DNA of 64,000 nucleotides from Affinirhizobium straminoryzae (lineage in GTDB: Bacteria > Pseudomonadota > Alphaproteobacteria > Rhizobiales > Rhizobiaceae). The stretch is from positions 62,001-126,000 of the forward strand of contig NZ_VJMG01000016.1 in assembly GCF_007004135.1 (NCBI RefSeq), read 5' to 3'. Below, one piece after another: positions 1-63,845 of this stretch (within the stretch, counting starts at the first letter, position 1; every line of letters begins with the position of its first letter). The notes under the pieces were generated by a model. The model made no database searches, was not told the origin of the DNA, and saw only the letters and a list, made by a program, of their open reading frames with translations. Both the position numbers and the translations under genes were made by a program.

Positions 1-1012
1 TGTCGAGCGTGGCAAGGGCTGCGGCAGAAGCGATCGGGTTGCCGGAATAGGTGTAGCCGTGGAAGAACTCGATCAGATGTTCCGGGCCGTTCATGAAGGC
101 GTCGTGGATTTCGGCGGTCACGAAGACGGCGCCCATCGGGATCACGCCATTGGTCAGGCCCTTGGCGGTGACCATGATGTCCGGCTTGACGTCGAAATAC
201 TGCGAGGCGAAGGGGGTGCCGAGGCGGCCGTAACCGGTGATGACTTCATCGAAGATCAGCAGGATGCCATGCTTGGTGCAGATCTCGCGCAGCTTCTGCA
301 AATACCCCTTCGGCGGGATGAGCACGCCGGTGGATCCGGCGACCGGTTCGACGATGACGGCGGCCACGGTGGAGGCGTCATGCAGCGTGACGATGCGCTC
401 CAGTTCGGTCGCCAGATCGCCGCCCACTTCGGGCTCGCCGCGGGTGAACGCGTTCTTGCCGGGAAGATGCGTGTGCGGCATGTGGTCGACGCCGGTCAGC
501 AGCGTGCCGAACATCTTGCGGTTGGCGACGATGCCACCAACGGAAATGCCGCCGAAATTGACGCCGTGATAGCCGCGCTCGCGGCCGATCAGGCGAAACT
601 TTGCGCCATTGCCCTTGGCGCGATGATAGGCGATCGCGACCTTCAGGGCGGTATCGACCGATTCGGAGCCGGAATTGGTGTAGAGCACGTGCTCCAGACC
701 CTCGGGCGCGATGTCGACCAGACGATTCGCAAGTTCGAACGCCTTGGGATGGCCCAGCTGGAAGGCGGGTGCATAATCCAGTTCGCCGGCCTGTTCGCGG
801 ATCGCCTCGGTGATCTTCGGGCGGCAATGGCCGGCATTCACGCACCACAGGCCCGCCGTCGCATCCAGAACCTGGCGGCCGTCATGCGTCGTATAGTGCA
901 TGTCCTTGGCAGACACGAACAGGCGCGGTTCTTTCTTGAACTGGCGATTGGCGGTGAAAGGCATCCAGAACGCCCGCAAGTCGTTCGGGGCGGTATTCAG
1001 GCGGTTCGACAT
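1..1012 (-). CDS. Omega-amino acid (beta-alanine)--pyruvate aminotransferase, 3' end missing
   Basis: Class III PLP-dependent aminotransferase, truncated by the left window edge, so the C-terminus is not seen. The protein begins near SNRLNTAPNDLRAFWMPFTANRQFK, typical of beta-alanine/omega-amino-acid:pyruvate transaminases. Family marks are the cofactor-phosphate loop (YTNSGSESVDTAL, about residue 108), the metal/PLP Asp motif (IFDEVITGYGRLG, about 262) and the probable PLP lysine in VTAKGLTNG (about 284). The start at 1012 is chosen because GGAG lies 6 nt upstream. In-frame ATGs at 1015, 1024 and 1039 are alternatives. It probably moves amino groups from beta-alanine, polyamine-derived or similar amines to pyruvate; the substrate cannot be fixed from sequence. 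Confidence 0.9.
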   Translation of the reverse strand, partial: MSNRLNTAPNDLRAFWMPFTANRQFKKEPRLFVSAKDMHYTTHDGRQVLDATAGLWCVNAGHCRPKITEAIREQAGELDYAPAFQLGHPKAFELANRLVDIAPEGLEHVLYTNSGSESVDTALKVAIAYHRAKGNGAKFRLIGRERGYHGVNFGGISVGGIVANRKMFGTLLTGVDHMPHTHLPGKNAFTRGEPEVGGDLATELERIVTLHDASTVAAVIVEPVAGSTGVLIPPKGYLQKLREICTKHGILLIFDEVITGYGRLGTPFASQYFDVKPDIMVTAKGLTNGVIPMGAVFVTAEIHDAFMNGPEHLIEFFHGYTYSGNPIASAAALATLD

Positions 1013-18738: not shown

Positions 18739-18783
18739 ATGAAAACGTCGATGATCATGGTTATCTGGTGGTGGGCTCGCTGA
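18739..18783 (+). CDS. trpL: trp leader peptide
   Basis: 14-codon ORF reading MKTSMIMVIWWWAR, with three consecutive TGG codons two codons before the stop. The S. meliloti leader also ends WWWAR. Ribosome stalling at the Trp codons when charged tRNA-Trp is scarce should free region 2 to pair with region 3. Region 1 CTGGT (18765-18769) can pair with ACCAG (18795-18799). Region 2 GCGGC (18786-18790) can pair with GCCGC (18822-18826), which is part of the terminator stem. In S. meliloti the released peptide also acts in trans; whether it does so here is unknown. Confidence 0.93.
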   Translation: MKTSMIMVIWWWAR

Positions 18784-18818
18784 CAGCGGCCTTGACCAGT
18801 CATGTCCTGAGACGAGAC

Positions 18819-18851
18819 AAAGCCGCCCGAAACTCCCGAGGCGGCTTTTTT
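18819..18851 (+). terminator. trp attenuator terminator
   Basis: Perfect 9-bp stem AAAGCCGCC (18819-18827) and GGCGGCTTT (18840-18848), ending in six T residues. It sits between trpL and trpE(G), and its 5' arm can alternatively pair with 18786-18790. Confidence 0.9.
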
Positions 18852-57874: not shown

Positions 57875-58351
57875 CTACGGGCTGTGGTTCCCGCTCCAGG
57901 CGATTTGCCGCATGGCCTCTCCCGCAATCATGGCAGCGGAGACCGCGACATTGATGGAGCGTTGCCCGTCGACCATCGGAATGATCACGCGGTGATCGGC
58001 CGTCTCGTGCACCGAATCGGGAACTCCCGCGCTTTCCCGGCCGAACAGCAGGATGTCGCCATCCGCGAAGCGGAAATCCGTGTAGCGTTCTGCGGCCCTG
58101 GTGGAGGCGAGCACGAGGCGGCGGCCTTCTGCCCGCCGCCAGTCCTCGAACTGCTGCCAGTTGACATGGCGGGTCATGGTGACGCTTGCCAGATAGTCCA
58201 TGCCGGCGCGTCGCAGGTTCTTGTCCGAGAGCACGAAGCCAGCCGGCTCGATGATGTCGACCTGAAGGCCGAGACAGGCGACGAGCCGCAGAATCGTGCC
58301 GGTATTGCCGGGAATGTCGGGCTGGTAGAGGGCGATGCGCAGCGTCGTCAT
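57875..58351 (-). CDS. trmL: tRNA (cytidine/uridine-34-2'-O)-methyltransferase
   Basis: 158-residue SPOUT methyltransferase that methylates the wobble ribose of tRNA-Leu. The N-terminus is LRIALYQPDIPGNTGTILRL, and knot motifs are DILLFGRESAGVP and PMVDGQRSINVAVSAAMIAGE. The ATG at 58351 is chosen by family length; the frame opens at 58381. Confidence 0.94.
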   Translation of the reverse strand: MTTLRIALYQPDIPGNTGTILRLVACLGLQVDIIEPAGFVLSDKNLRRAGMDYLASVTMTRHVNWQQFEDWRRAEGRRLVLASTRAAERYTDFRFADGDILLFGRESAGVPDSVHETADHRVIIPMVDGQRSINVAVSAAMIAGEAMRQIAWSGNHSP

Positions 58352-58509
58352 GGTCTTCCGTCTCTGATGGGCGGGGTTCATCCACAGGCTGTGTTACGCA
58401 ACCGTCACAGCCGCCGAACCATCCGGGCAGATGTCGGATTTCGGCTTTCCAAGCCCGCCCTTTGCTGCTACAGGCATTTCATCTTCAACGCCAGCCAAAG
58501 GAGGCAGAC

Positions 58510-58560
58510 ATGGACATGACCGTGATGACACGCCTCCCAGCTTGGATTGTCCGAGCCTAG
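58510..58560 (+). CDS. Short upstream ORF (possible leader peptide) of ABC exporter
   Basis: 16-codon ORF reading MDMTVMTRLPAWIVRA with stop TAG. AAAGGAGG (58497-58504) stands 5 nt before its ATG, stronger than the site of the downstream gene. It lies 156 nt upstream of the first ABC exporter. There is no run of one amino acid, so classical amino-acid attenuation is not indicated. Ribosome-stalling or drug-responsive control is possible. Unrecognised; translation is inferred from the ribosome-binding site. Confidence 0.5.
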   Translation: MDMTVMTRLPAWIVRA

Positions 58561-58562
58561 GC

Positions 58563-58626
58563 AAACGGCGTTCGCGGTTTCCGCAAACCCTCTTCCCCAT
58601 TCCCATTTTGCGGCCGGTTCCCGGCC
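58563..58626 (+). promoter_or_regulatory. Alternative hairpins after the upstream ORF
   Basis: GGTTT (58576-58580) can pair with AAACC (58585-58589), while part of it (GTTT) can instead pair with AAAC (58563-58566), just after the uORF stop. A separate perfect hairpin, GGCCGG-TTC-CCGGCC, is at 58612-58626. The mutually exclusive pairing resembles an attenuator. Confidence 0.35.
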
Positions 58627-58716
58627 TCAGCGTTTGAATTTCGTCGTGCCCTGACCATCTTAACCCGCGCAGTGCGTGCGGTGGGCCGCGACCGAGCCGA
58701 TTGACGGAGCCAATTC

Positions 58717-60576
58717 ATGTTTGCCTGGTTCGAATCCCGTGTGAACCCCTATCCCGCCGGCGAGCCGGAACTGCCGCCCAAGGGGCTGGTCTCCTTCTGC
58801 TGGTACTATACAAAGCCTGTCTGGCCGTGGCTTCTGGTGCTGGGCCTCTGCTCGATGGGCATCGCGGTCATCGAGGTGTTCCTTTACCAGTTCCTCGGCA
58901 ATATCGTGGACTGGCTGAGCCATGCCGACCCCGCCACCTTCCTGCAGCAGGAGAGTGGCCGGCTGATCGGCATGGCCGCTCTCCTGCTGGTTGGCCTGCC
59001 GGTGATCGGGCTTTTCCATACGCTGACCATGCACCAGGTGCTGGCCGGCAGCTTTCCGATGATTGCGCGCTGGCAGATGCACCGTTTCCTGCTGCGCCAC
59101 TCAATGACATTCTTCGCCAACGAGTTTGCCGGTCGTGTCTCGACCAAGGTCATGCAGACGGCGCTTGCCGTGCGCGATGCGGCCATGAAGATCATCGACG
59201 TCTTCGTCTATGCCGCCAGCTTCTTCATCTCGATGCTGGCGCTGGTGGCGGCCATCGACTGGCGTCTTGGCTTGCCGCTGCTCGTCTGGCTGATCATCTA
59301 CCTGCTGATTCTCCGCCACTTCATTCCGAAGCTGCGCACGCTCTCCAGCGAGCAGGCGGATGCCCGGTCGCTGATGACCGGCCGCATCGTGGATAGCTAT
59401 ACCAATATCGCCACCGTCAAGCTGTTTTCCCATGCGGGGCGCGAGGAGCGCTATGCCCGGGAGGGCATGGACCAGTTTCTCGGCACGGTGAACCGGCAGA
59501 TGCGTCAGATCACGCTGCTGAATGTCGCCGTCGACCTCAACAATGTGCTGGTGCAGTTTTCTGTGGCGGCGCTCGGCATCTGGTTCTGGCTGGGTGGCAG
59601 CGTCAGCATCGGCGCGCTGGCGGTCGCGATCGGCCTGTCCATGCGCGTCAACGGCATGTCCAACTGGATCATGTGGGAAGTGGCAGCCCTCTTCGAAAGC
59701 ATCGGCACGGTCTATGACGGCATGGGCATGATGACCAAGCCGCACGACATCATCGACCGTCCTTCCGCACAGGCGCTCACCGCGCCGAAGGGCGAGATCG
59801 TCTATGACGATGTGCGCTTCCATTACGGCAAGCAGAAGGGCGTGATCGACAATTTCTCGCTCACCATCAAGGCGGGGGAAAAGGTCGGCCTCGTCGGTCG
59901 CTCAGGCGCCGGCAAGACCACGCTGATGAACCTCTTGTTGCGCTTCTACGATGTGGAGAAGGGCCGCATCCTGATCGATGGCCAGGATATCTCGCAGGTC
60001 TCGCAGGACAGTCTGCGGGCGCTGGTCGGCGTGGTGACGCAGGATACCTCGCTTCTGCATCGCTCGATCCGCGACAACATCGCCTATGGTCGTCCGGAGG
60101 CAAGCGATGCCGAGGTGATCGAGGCGGCCAAGCGCGCAAATGCCTGGGAGTTCATCCAGAGCCTTGCCGACCAGCAGGGGCGTACCGGCCTTGATGCGCA
60201 TGTGGGCGAGCGCGGCGTCAAGCTGTCCGGTGGCCAGCGGCAGCGTATCGCGATTGCGCGTGTGTTCCTGAAGGATGCGCCGGTCCTGATCCTCGATGAG
60301 GCGACCTCCGCGCTCGATTCCGAAGTGGAAGCGGCCATCCAGGAAAGCCTGTTCAAGCTGATCGAGAACAAGACGGTGATCGCGATCGCCCACCGCCTCT
60401 CGACGTTGACGCAGATGGACCGGCTGATCGTACTCGACAAGGGGCGGATCGTCGAGCAGGGCACGCATGGTGAACTGGTCGGTCAAGGCGGCATCTATGC
60501 CGACCTGTGGACGCGCCAGTCCGGCGGCTTCCTCGCCGATCAGGTGACACAGGAAACGGAGGCGGCGGCGGAATAG
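58717..60576 (+). CDS. ABC exporter half-transporter (permease-ATPase fusion)
   Basis: 619-residue inner-membrane exporter of the MsbA/multidrug type. The membrane domain has about six helices (about 38-320). The ATPase domain (about 350-600) has Walker A GRSGAGKTTL (about 394), signature LSGGQRQRIAIAR (about 503) and Walker B VLILDEATSALDSE (about 524). The substrate is unknown. It is very similar to the exporter at 61983, suggesting a duplicated or heterodimeric pair. It is preceded by a small upstream ORF. Confidence 0.93.
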   Translation: MFAWFESRVNPYPAGEPELPPKGLVSFCWYYTKPVWPWLLVLGLCSMGIAVIEVFLYQFLGNIVDWLSHADPATFLQQESGRLIGMAALLLVGLPVIGLFHTLTMHQVLAGSFPMIARWQMHRFLLRHSMTFFANEFAGRVSTKVMQTALAVRDAAMKIIDVFVYAASFFISMLALVAAIDWRLGLPLLVWLIIYLLILRHFIPKLRTLSSEQADARSLMTGRIVDSYTNIATVKLFSHAGREERYAREGMDQFLGTVNRQMRQITLLNVAVDLNNVLVQFSVAALGIWFWLGGSVSIGALAVAIGLSMRVNGMSNWIMWEVAALFESIGTVYDGMGMMTKPHDIIDRPSAQALTAPKGEIVYDDVRFHYGKQKGVIDNFSLTIKAGEKVGLVGRSGAGKTTLMNLLLRFYDVEKGRILIDGQDISQVSQDSLRALVGVVTQDTSLLHRSIRDNIAYGRPEASDAEVIEAAKRANAWEFIQSLADQQGRTGLDAHVGERGVKLSGGQRQRIAIARVFLKDAPVLILDEATSALDSEVEAAIQESLFKLIENKTVIAIAHRLSTLTQMDRLIVLDKGRIVEQGTHGELVGQGGIYADLWTRQSGGFLADQVTQETEAAAE

Positions 60577-60586: not shown

Positions 60587-60694
60587 TCATCACGCAGGAT
60601 GCGCCTGCAGCCCGCATTTTAGCAAACGCTTTTAAACTCCTGGAACGGTTTTGCGCCTATGCTCTGGACCATGCTGGTCTGGGAGAATGCCGCA

Positions 60695-61858
60695 ATGCCG
60701 ATGATCCCGCAGATGCCGCCAGAGGTGACGAGTCCCGGTCATCACGCCGTGACCATGCTGACGCGCCTTGGCCTCGACCTCACGCCGGTCAATTTCGAAC
60801 TGATGACGCTGCTGCTGGACGGACGGCGCGCCGACCTGCGGCTTGCCTTTGCCGCCCTCAAGCGACCCATCGCCGCCGAGGATTGGGAGGGGCTTGCCCG
60901 CCAGTTCCTGCCGCAGCATTTCGTCGCGGCCGCCGACCTGCAGGCGGGGCTTTCCTTGTTGCGCTCCCTGCAGGACGTGTGTGCTGCGCTGAGCCGCGCC
61001 GAGACAGCCTTCGCGGAGGACGGGCGCGCGCTTGAAAAGAGCAAGACGCTGCTCGCTGCCAGTGCCGGCATGTCGCAGGCGCAGCTGGCCCATGTGGCGG
61101 TCGGAATGGTCGGCGTCAACAGCCGGGCCGGCGAGCGGCTGACGGACCTTCTCAAAACGCTGGCCCGCTGGCTGGCGGTGTCGAAGCCGGATGTCGCAGA
61201 TACCCCGTCCGCCGACGGCGTTGCGCCTGGCGCATCGCAAGTGGCAACGTCGGAAACGCCGGGCGCCTCCATGCCGGCCGCGGCCTTAGTTGGGGGCGCC
61301 GTTTCCAGCCCTGTGACGCTGCACGGTCTTGCCGAGCGTTCGGTGCTGATGGGCCGCCTGCAGGACCTGCATACCGGCGGGCAGAAGCTCGATGGTTCCA
61401 GTCTGATGCTCTGCCATCTGAAGGGGCTCGACGGTTATCGCGGGCCGGACATGCTGAAGGCCCGTGATTTCGTGTTGGACACGCTTGGTCACCAGACACA
61501 ACGGCTGATGGGAGAGGGGGATCTTGCCTGCTGGATGTCGCCGGAGGAACTCGGCCTGCTGCTGGATGCCAACAATGATCTGCTGCTGACCGACATCAGC
61601 CAGAAGCTCCGGCGTATTGTGACGGGATCCGTACGGCATGCACGCCGCACTGTCTCGGGCCTGCCGGACCTTCGCTGCCACATCGGTTGCGCCAGCGCCT
61701 TCGGGCCCGTGTCGCCCGGCCAGCTTTACAGCAGCGCCAAGCTGGCGTTGCAGCGTGCGGAATTTGCCGATGACGATCGGCTTGTCATCAACGACCTCTC
61801 AGGCCCGCTGAAAGTCGACCGTCGCTATGACGCGCTCTATGGCAGGCGCATGCAGTAA
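60695..61858 (+). CDS. Degenerate GGDEF-like protein
   Basis: 387-residue predicted soluble protein. The N-terminal half (about 1-165) is helical and unrecognised. The C-terminal half (about 205-385) follows the GGDEF fold order: LAERSVLMGRLQDL resembles the first motif, MLCHLKGLDGYRG the DxD motif. The GGDEF site is replaced by WMSPEELGLLL, so it is almost certainly catalytically inactive. It might bind c-di-GMP or GTP, or be a structural partner. GGGAGA lies 8 nt before the ATG at 60695. It lies between two ABC exporters in the same direction. Confidence 0.7.
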   Translation: MPMIPQMPPEVTSPGHHAVTMLTRLGLDLTPVNFELMTLLLDGRRADLRLAFAALKRPIAAEDWEGLARQFLPQHFVAAADLQAGLSLLRSLQDVCAALSRAETAFAEDGRALEKSKTLLAASAGMSQAQLAHVAVGMVGVNSRAGERLTDLLKTLARWLAVSKPDVADTPSADGVAPGASQVATSETPGASMPAAALVGGAVSSPVTLHGLAERSVLMGRLQDLHTGGQKLDGSSLMLCHLKGLDGYRGPDMLKARDFVLDTLGHQTQRLMGEGDLACWMSPEELGLLLDANNDLLLTDISQKLRRIVTGSVRHARRTVSGLPDLRCHIGCASAFGPVSPGQLYSSAKLALQRAEFADDDRLVINDLSGPLKVDRRYDALYGRRMQ

Positions 61859-61982: not shown

Positions 61983-63845
61983 ATGATCGACGCCCTGTTC
62001 CGCTTCTTCGAAACCCGTATCGACCCCTTCGCCGCCCGGCGGGATCTGCGCCCGCCGAATGGCACGATCGCCTTCATCTGGTTCTATGTGCGCCAGGCGA
62101 GAGCCCCCTTCTTCGCCATGCTGGTGCTGGGCGGCCTGACGGCAGCCATCGAGGCGGCGCTCTTCTGGTTTGTCGGCCGGCTCGTCGATATCCTTGCCTC
62201 GGTCGAGCGGGCGGCCGGCTGGTCCGGACTGCTGGCGGCACATGGCTGGGAACTCGCCGGCATGCTGGTGCTGATCGGCCTCGTGCGCTTTCTCGTCACC
62301 ATGGCGACTGCCCTCATCGACCAGCAGGTGATCACGCCCGGCTTCTACAATCTGGTGCGCTGGCAATCCTACCAGCACGTGGCGCGCCAATCGATTTCCT
62401 TCTTCCAGAACGATTTCGCCGGTCGCATCGTCACAAAAGTCTGGTCCGGCGGCCAGGCCGCGGGCGACCTCGTGACCTCGCTGATGGAAAGCGTGTGGTT
62501 CGTCGCCGTCTATTCCATCTCCATGATGGCACTGATCGGCGGGCTGGACTGGCGCCTCGCCCTTGTCGTGCTCGTCTGGGTCGTCATCTTCTCCTTCCTC
62601 GCCCGCTTCTTCGTGCCGCGCATCCGCTATCACTCCCGCGAAACGGCGGAAGCCGCCTCGATGCTGAGCGGACGCATGGTGGATGCCTACAGCAACATCC
62701 AGACGCTGCGCCTGTTCGGCCGCGACGATGTCAACGACCGCTACATGCGGGAAGGGTTCGACATCTTCCAGTCGGCCACCATGATGTTCACCCGCTTCAT
62801 CACCGGGGTCCGGGCCTCGCTGGCGCTGTTGTCCGGCGTGATGATCACCACCATGGCGGCGCTCTGCATTCATCTTTGGCTGTCCGGCCGCATCAGCGCA
62901 GGCGCGGTGGCCTTCACGCTGGCGCTGGTGCTGCGGCTGAACTTCCTGCTCGGCCGCCTGATGACCCAGTTCAACGGCATCATGCGCAATTTCGGCACGG
63001 TGCAGAACGCCGCCGAGCTGATCTCGCAGCCGATCGGCCTCGTGGACCGCCCGAACGCACCGGCACTGACCATCAATGCACCGGAAATCCGCTTCGAGGA
63101 TGTCAGCTTCCACTATGGTCGGGACAAGGGCGTCATCGATCACCTTTCGCTGACGATCCGACCGGGCGAGAAGGTCGGTATCGTCGGCCGGTCCGGCGCC
63201 GGGAAATCCACGCTCGTCAATCTCCTGCTGCGCTTTTACGATGTAGAAGGCGGCCGTATTCTGATCGACGGGCAGGATATTGCCGGCGTGACGCAGGAAT
63301 CGCTGCGCGGCCAGATCGGCATGGTTACGCAGGATACCTCGCTGCTGCATCGCTCGATCCGCGACAACATCCTGTTCGGCCGGCAGGACGCCAGCGATGC
63401 GCAGTTGCTGCTGGCGGCCGAGCGCGCCGAGGCGGACGGGTTCATTCAGGCGCTGGAGGACCAGCGCGGCCGCAAGGGGTTCGACGCCCATGTCGGCGAG
63501 CGCGGCGTAAAACTCTCCGGCGGCCAGCGTCAGCGCATCGCGATTGCCCGCGTGATGCTGAAGGATGCGCCGATCCTCGTGCTGGACGAGGCGACCTCGG
63601 CGCTGGATTCCGAGGTGGAGGCGGCGATCCAGTCCAATCTCGATGTCCTGATGCAGGGCAAGACGGTGCTGGCCATTGCCCACCGCCTCTCCACCATCGC
63701 AGCGCTTGACCGGCTGATCGTGATGGATCGAGGTCGCATCGTGCAGCAGGGCACCCATGCCGAGCTGATTGCGAAAGGCGGGCTTTACGCAGAACTCTGG
63801 TCGCGCCAGTCCGGCGGCTTCATCGCCGTGGACGACCCTGCCTGA
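61983..63845 (+). CDS. ABC exporter half-transporter (permease-ATPase fusion)
   Basis: 620-residue exporter closely related to the one at 58717. The membrane domain is about 40-330. The ATPase has Walker A GRSGAGKSTL (about 402), signature LSGGQRQRIAIAR (about 509) and Walker B ILVLDEATSALDSE (about 530). Both ATPase sites look intact, so each could work as a homodimer. Substrate unknown. The ATG at 61983 is followed by IDALFRFFETRIDPFA. Confidence 0.93.
   Translation: MIDALFRFFETRIDPFAARRDLRPPNGTIAFIWFYVRQARAPFFAMLVLGGLTAAIEAALFWFVGRLVDILASVERAAGWSGLLAAHGWELAGMLVLIGLVRFLVTMATALIDQQVITPGFYNLVRWQSYQHVARQSISFFQNDFAGRIVTKVWSGGQAAGDLVTSLMESVWFVAVYSISMMALIGGLDWRLALVVLVWVVIFSFLARFFVPRIRYHSRETAEAASMLSGRMVDAYSNIQTLRLFGRDDVNDRYMREGFDIFQSATMMFTRFITGVRASLALLSGVMITTMAALCIHLWLSGRISAGAVAFTLALVLRLNFLLGRLMTQFNGIMRNFGTVQNAAELISQPIGLVDRPNAPALTINAPEIRFEDVSFHYGRDKGVIDHLSLTIRPGEKVGIVGRSGAGKSTLVNLLLRFYDVEGGRILIDGQDIAGVTQESLRGQIGMVTQDTSLLHRSIRDNILFGRQDASDAQLLLAAERAEADGFIQALEDQRGRKGFDAHVGERGVKLSGGQRQRIAIARVMLKDAPILVLDEATSALDSEVEAAIQSNLDVLMQGKTVLAIAHRLSTIAALDRLIVMDRGRIVQQGTHAELIAKGGLYAELWSRQSGGFIAVDDPA

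Follow-up and report, generated by a model that had tools for sequence, protein, structure and literature searches.

Among the systems described so far, the leader reported here is best compared with the duf1127_1 leader of S. meliloti, whose transcript starts 30 nt before a uORF of 29 amino acids named sORF26 (Kothe 2025, PMC12218461). According to the available text of that article, a fold of the ribosome-binding site (RBS) of duf1127_1 onto codons 1-10 is predicted, and de-repression follows when C-rich codons are changed synonymously or the start codon is lost. Of this uORF the second half is dispensable. Moreover, an element with C over G directly after the stop codon is required, and 3' ends cluster past it. 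Attenuation is relieved by tetracycline, and an involvement of Rho is proposed, not proven.

Other leaders with an ORF ahead of the regulated gene, cited here from the accessible parts of the respective articles, are known from other bacteria. In Bacillus subtilis, translation of the leader ORF bmrB is proposed to control the BmrC/BmrD ABC exporter under translation inhibitors (PMC4191407). In E. coli, ribosome inhibitors of several classes are sensed by toiL, the uORF of topAI, and Rho is involved (PMC12121999). In Bordetella pertussis, CruR (bp2923) belongs to a system in which Rho-dependent termination takes place past a uORF, before a transporter gene (PMC9426467).

The window analysed here is the whole stretch of 64,000 nt taken from Affinirhizobium straminoryzae (GCF_007004135.1, contig NZ_VJMG01000016.1, positions 62,001-126,000, forward strand). 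It contains an ABC exporter gene preceded by a short uORF with its own Shine-Dalgarno sequence (SD). In this arrangement the locus resembles bmrB, a leader ORF ahead of an ABC exporter, toiL, a uORF upstream of a regulated gene, and CruR, where a uORF precedes a transporter gene. The features of the locus, in coordinates of the window, are the following:

57878-58381, divergent from the exporter: trmL-type tRNA methyltransferase gene (PF00588)
58446-58451 and 58469-58474, plus strand: predicted promoter, TTTCCA and TACAGG separated by 17 nt, with the start expected near 58481
58487-58492, plus strand: 5' arm of helix P1, AACGCC, pairing with 58567-58572 (swap tests, RNAalifold)
58497-58504, plus strand: SD of the uORF, AAAGGAGG, 5 nt before the ATG at 58510, conserved
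58500-58505, plus strand: 5' arm of helix P2, GGAGGC (SD), pairing with 58532-58537 (shuffle test, RNAalifold, pair counts)
58509-58513 and 58520-58524, plus strand: start-codon hairpin, CATGG with CCGTG (RNAalifold, pair counts)
58510-58560, plus strand: uORF of 16 codons, MDMTVMTRLPAWIVRA, between trmL and the exporter, with stop TAG at 58558-58560
58532-58537, plus strand: 3' arm of P2, GCCTCC, inside codons 8-10 (shuffle test, pair counts)
58567-58572, plus strand: 3' arm of P1, GGCGTT, 6 nt past the stop codon (swap tests, RNAalifold)
58574-58584, plus strand: small hairpin P3, GCGG-TTT-CCGC (RNAalifold; over 25 leaders, 90% paired cells)
58585-58609, plus strand: C-/T-rich, G-poor stretch, rut-like by composition only
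58612-58626, plus strand: hairpin P4, GGCCGG-TTC-CCGGCC (from the sequence)
58706-58709, plus strand: SD of the exporter, GGAG, before its ATG at 58717
58717-60576, plus strand: ABC exporter (PF00664, PF00005), the presumed regulated gene
61983-63845: second exporter gene, downstream of the first

The preliminary description of this DNA had reported AAAGGAGG at 5-nt spacing, a short uORF and the exporter downstream, and all its statements on the sequence are correct. The distance from the uORF stop to the exporter start is 156 nt. By sequence, the nearest solved chains to the exporter are ABCB-type exporters; none of the NCBIfam matches listed for it (25 of 187) reaches the cut-off. An ORF between both exporter genes (60659-61858, plus strand) matches GGDEF with 19.5 bits, below the Pfam cut-off of 23.8 bits, and possibly encodes a degenerate GGDEF-like protein.

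Leaders for comparison were gathered in two sets. The first consists of 80 loci obtained through the trmL protein and 25 loci (23 genomes) obtained through the leader DNA; the exporter is divergent from trmL and alignable from its first residue in 104/105 loci, which gave 96 distinct leaders. The extra family set consists of 60 more leaders, nearly all from other genera of Rhizobiaceae; a locus without exporter (L072) was excluded. An SD-preceded ATG uORF 11-30 codons long, located 150-320 nt before the exporter, is found in 130 of the 153 distinct leaders (96/96 in the first set and 34/57 in the extra family set) and is missing by these criteria in 23. Control leaders contain far fewer: 1.4 (sd 1.2) after mononucleotide shuffling, 1.0 (sd 1.1, max 4) after dinucleotide shuffling and 1 on the opposite strand of the 153 leaders. 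The uORF has 18 codons in 55 leaders and 17 codons in 40; at 16-18 codons it differs in length from the duf1127_1 uORF with its 29 codons.

From 63 representatives, four (L165, L149, L122 and L136) were excluded for most counts, leaving 59 for the region-pair scans, exporter-start pairing, promoter motif and seeds, terminators and hairpins, accessibility, frame, substitutions and the GCCTCC motif; the composition count of C versus G uses 60 representatives, and the arm-swap and SD-codon pairing tests use all 63. The first in-frame stop lies at a median of 54 nt (quartiles 54-54) and at 45-60 nt in 48/59 representatives, a spread that the criterion of 11-30 codons narrows without forcing it. 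The +1 and +2 frames have a stop at 45-60 nt in 0 and 1 of 59 representatives respectively, and show no focus. Comparison of the leader across relatives, proposed as a check in the preliminary description, finds the frame kept; a frame not kept in relatives had been named there as a refuting outcome.

A promoter-like motif, TTTTCA-N17-TANAAG, stands at a fixed distance before the uORF in the 59 representatives (score 11.6 vs 6.9 shuffled), with a median of 35 nt between the end of its -10 element and the uORF ATG. Seeding with the standard promoter hexamers leads there as well, to within 3 nt in 46 and 51 of the 59 representatives. Because a plain consensus scan found no promoter site in this region of the window leader, the start near 58481 is a prediction; it would place the SD-preceded uORF about 30 nt past the transcript start, a likeness to duf1127_1. 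A transcript starting after 58560 had been named earlier as an observation that would speak against a role of the uORF, and the conserved motif predicts the upstream start instead. A promoter between uORF and exporter was also considered and rejected, as scores there are slightly above shuffles and the position is not fixed (13, 2 and 6 of 59).

Comparison of the leaders indicates that the uORF lies within its own RNA structure and that its start site can fold away; the conserved architecture itself is very probably real. From 25 genus-type leaders and structure-free input, RNAalifold pairs CAUGG with CCGUG in a nested hairpin at the start codon, the GGAGGC of the SD with the GCCUCC of codons 8-10, and a CGCC upstream of the SD with a GGCG at the stop; the last of these is P1, the helix that encloses the uORF. 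In this structure 96.6% of cells pair, against 34-48% in slid versions, and two-sided changes are seen in 7 cells (1.2 in shuffles) and 4 pairs (1.0 in shuffles; 3/500). Its covariation score is matched by 0/500 shuffles. All these counts are biased toward the structure because it was derived from the same 25 leaders. A smaller hand-made structure has weaker support (2 cells, 12/500; score, 6/500). The leader sets used here, A1 (25 leaders) and A2 (7 leaders), are hand-chosen clear cases, and A1 includes several close relatives.

The SD pairs with codons 4-13 at -13.4, versus -10.7 (sd 0.32) for shuffled partners, over the 63 representatives; the swap test of the same pairing (z -1.66, 105/2000) is uninformative because the pairing core varies too little. 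A GCCTCC-type motif is present in 45/59 representatives and has the same offset in 38 of these 45. In the pairing that its RBS can form with C-rich early uORF codons the leader is similar to duf1127_1, except in the 14 representatives in which the motif is absent.

The arms of the enclosing helix differ by clade: AACGCC/GGCGTT in the window, AACACC/GGTGTT in L116 and L118, and CGCGAACC / GGTT-CGCG in the seven other leaders of A2, among which the helix is nearly invariant (63/500 shuffles). Its register shifts; column counts are therefore of limited use, and the arms were swapped instead. Native arms pair better than swapped ones in the 63 representatives (z -5.1, 0/2000 permutations). The permutations ignore relatedness, so that a z value is best judged by the remaining region pairs of its scan; in this test four further region pairs had z -0.9 to -2.2. 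In an unbiased scan of 626 region pairs the enclosing pairing ranked ahead of all others, with z -5.98 against a mean of 0.05 (sd 1.23) over all pairs. The same two regions occupy 8 of the 9 best places, in windows that run from around the SD as far as the final codons and the stop, so that the exact pairs vary. A covarying helix involving the stop region distinguishes the exporter leader from duf1127_1 as described in the available text.

Accessibility in 59 leaders, compared with shuffles in which SD and start were fixed, is 0.14 vs 0.22 at the SD and 0.28 vs 0.47 at the start codon; 0/60 shuffled sets are as low, and the SD falls under its own shuffle mean in 47/59 leaders. In the window itself the SD is not lower (0.40 vs 0.35 shuffled), and the start codon has 0.23 vs 0.52. 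A slightly longer window leader has an MFE of -38.8 kcal/mol with all helices present, and the folding of the full window leader is not unusual (z -1.41; 18/200 shuffles as good). Taken across the leaders, the uORF of the preliminary description is real: it is conserved, is preceded by an SD and lies within RNA structure ahead of the exporter.

Start, frame and stop of the uORF are retained, and the C-terminal half of the peptide is variable, even between close relatives, which points to selection for translation more than for the peptide. The constant parts of genus-type leaders are ATGGAYATGACCGTG (MDMTV) and CGCCTCC (RL), and most of the constant residues of the peptide fall where the RNA is base-paired; the case shows that conserved residues in a very short ORF can be the shadow of RNA pairing. 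Synonymous changes among single-change codons number 54 vs 35.9 expected in 42 disjoint pairs, and 282 vs 272 in 241 non-independent pairs, which suggests weak selection on the uORF peptide. Because of this weak selection, and of the coincidence of most of the constant residues with paired RNA, we judge less likely the nascent-peptide sensor that the preliminary description had preferred along with an antibiotic sensor. Its remark that no amino acid is enriched holds: by eye, codon runs are absent from the window peptide and from the 63 representatives, and amino-acid attenuation of the trp type was rejected. CruR differs in being a copper-sensing nascent protein with an arrest motif, as far as the available text describes it, whereas the exporter uORF is without a conserved motif of that kind (PMC9426467).

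Two details of the uORF are recorded here. The loop of the start hairpin (58514-58519, AYAUGA), in which another ATG lies in frame, hardly varies among genus-type leaders and is predicted to be unpaired. Ala is found just before the stop (58555-58560 region of the window) in 40/63 representative uORFs.

Downstream of the uORF, C exceeds G at stop+18..58 in 57/60 representatives, a likeness by composition to the stretch past the stop in duf1127_1; the excess is not confined to this stretch, since it is found in 48/60 at stop+70..110 and in 21/60 before the uORF. A hairpin of the GGCC..GGCC type, about 40-60 nt past the uORF stop in 30/59 representatives, might act as a pause site or belong to an expression platform. 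At 58300-58800 the window contains no terminator-like site, and an ORF-controlled intrinsic terminator of the bmrB type was not found there; the bmrB leader, from a Gram-positive bacterium, uses such a terminator together with alternative stem-loops inside its ORF (PMC4191407). In the comparison with duf1127_1, a leader without intrinsic terminator, the picture is mixed: the window leader has none, yet terminator-like sites after the stop occur in 18/59 leaders vs 8.2 (sd 2.2) in shuffles, because of which some leaders may use intrinsic ends. The two competing partners earlier ascribed to GTTT exist in the window sequence, where the GTTT of 58577-58580 has one possible partner in the AAAC of 58563-58566, directly past the stop, and another in that of 58585-58588; the nearest relative by DNA (L002) is without the AAAC after the stop, and the two-partner switch, not being conserved, was rejected.

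A covariance model (R1) built from the 25 leaders gives a single strong match (E 3.4e-9 or better) per genome in 57/57 genomes of the genus, 20 of them not sampled before, and other matches within these 57 genomes have E above 0.1. All of the 20 loci checked among the 57 hits lie before the exporter and have the uORF. In other genomes of the order a match is found in 9/149, all weak (E 0.009 to 0.09; stricter filters). For a second copy in the source genome the model gives weak matches only, E 4.1 or worse. The pattern SD-ATG-CCTCC occurs at 43 places in that genome, of which 29 loci were inspected; 18 rows have a stop within 45 codons, including this uORF. Inspection by eye near the DUF1127 genes of the source genome revealed no clear counterpart of the duf1127_1 uORF. 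Rfam 15 has no match to the leader, neither at gathering level nor with the limit relaxed to E 5. The available main text of the literature searched, including passages of PMC10117765 and PMC11109978, was found to contain no description of it.

Judging from the leaders compared, control of the exporter in cis by translation of the uORF is its most likely role. By analogy with duf1127_1, the leader may be a cis-acting attenuator that senses the initiation of ribosomes on the short uORF, a mechanism that we think has about an even chance of being correct. Under normal growth the first ribosome would load before the structure closes and would translate the uORF; its passage would expose C-rich RNA in and past the uORF, and a termination factor, most likely Rho, would halt transcription, so that the exporter stays low. 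A block of initiation, such as that imposed by tetracycline, or a shortage of ribosomes would leave the C-rich RNA masked, either by a stuck ribosome or by the hairpin in its closed form, and transcription would reach the exporter. The signal would be the act of translation, and the peptide would be of little weight. The leader may in this way let the cell make more pump when ribosomes are in trouble, e.g. under antibiotics, and an antibiotic response is plausible. In the available text, duf1127_1 regulates a DUF1127 gene, here the presumed output is an ABC exporter; moreover duf1127_1 has been dissected experimentally, and the likeness of the exporter leader to it is one of sequence anatomy. 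Homology of the two would be conjectural, model R1 having this locus as its one strong match in the source genome.

In a classical stall attenuator a drug, a metabolite or the nascent peptide would stall the ribosome at given codons and switch downstream hairpins. Such a device agrees with the short, conserved uORF that precedes the exporter, with the weak purifying selection seen at its codons (54 vs 35.9), with the GTTT alternatives of the window sequence and with the bmrB precedent (PMC4191407); however, the C-terminal half of the peptide differs among close relatives, the GTTT switch is not conserved, the window leader is without terminator and most of the constant residues coincide with paired RNA, and we regard stalling as unlikely. 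Ribosomes on the uORF might instead alter pairing around the RBS of the exporter, as toiL, in the accessible text, frees the RBS of the next gene (PMC12121999). The exporter leader is without such a conserved pairing: the best of 338 region pairs has z -3.16 (mean 0.37, sd 1.13), nothing clusters as the enclosing helix does, and stop and exporter start are 156 nt apart. The toiL precedent, the short exporter SD (GGAG in 49/59 representatives) and an extensive pairing between stop region and exporter start in the window MFE (-23.3 kcal/mol vs median -9.7) would favour control of this kind, but this pairing is private to the window, with 0/58 others as strong, and was rejected; translational control appears quite improbable.

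The covarying helices would also be expected of a structured RNA, be it a riboswitch, a thermometer or a processed sRNA, with an ORF that is there by accident. Conservation of frame, SD and stop goes against this, as does the lack of an Rfam match up to E 5, and the chance that it is right is slender. A leader peptide of the family, peTrpL, reportedly acts in trans (PMC7298713), a precedent for a similar action of the uORF peptide; to this we attach next to no credence, the peptide being poorly conserved and the element standing before the exporter in 20/20 loci checked of the 57 model hits.

If the reading as an initiation-sensing attenuator is extended to the family, a class of Rhizobiaceae attenuators may be envisaged, tentatively and with somewhat more doubt than confidence. 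In such leaders a uORF of 17-18 codons would hide its own SD and start codon, and the RNA would time the first ribosome against folding; any block or shortage of initiation, whatever the drug, would induce an ABC exporter, and the peptide would be without role. The exporter leader may widen a single recent unusual case, the duf1127_1 leader, into a broader design with a covariation-backed structure and a transporter as output. If right, it would make it possible to test directly how Gram-negative soil bacteria gauge the supply of available ribosomes, and the exporter could be raised by sublethal translation inhibitors without a dedicated drug receptor.

Elsewhere in the window, the sRNA RcsR1 (RF02552) matches at 18755-18851 (plus strand) with 85.2 bits, the sole gathering-level Rfam match in the 64,000 nt.
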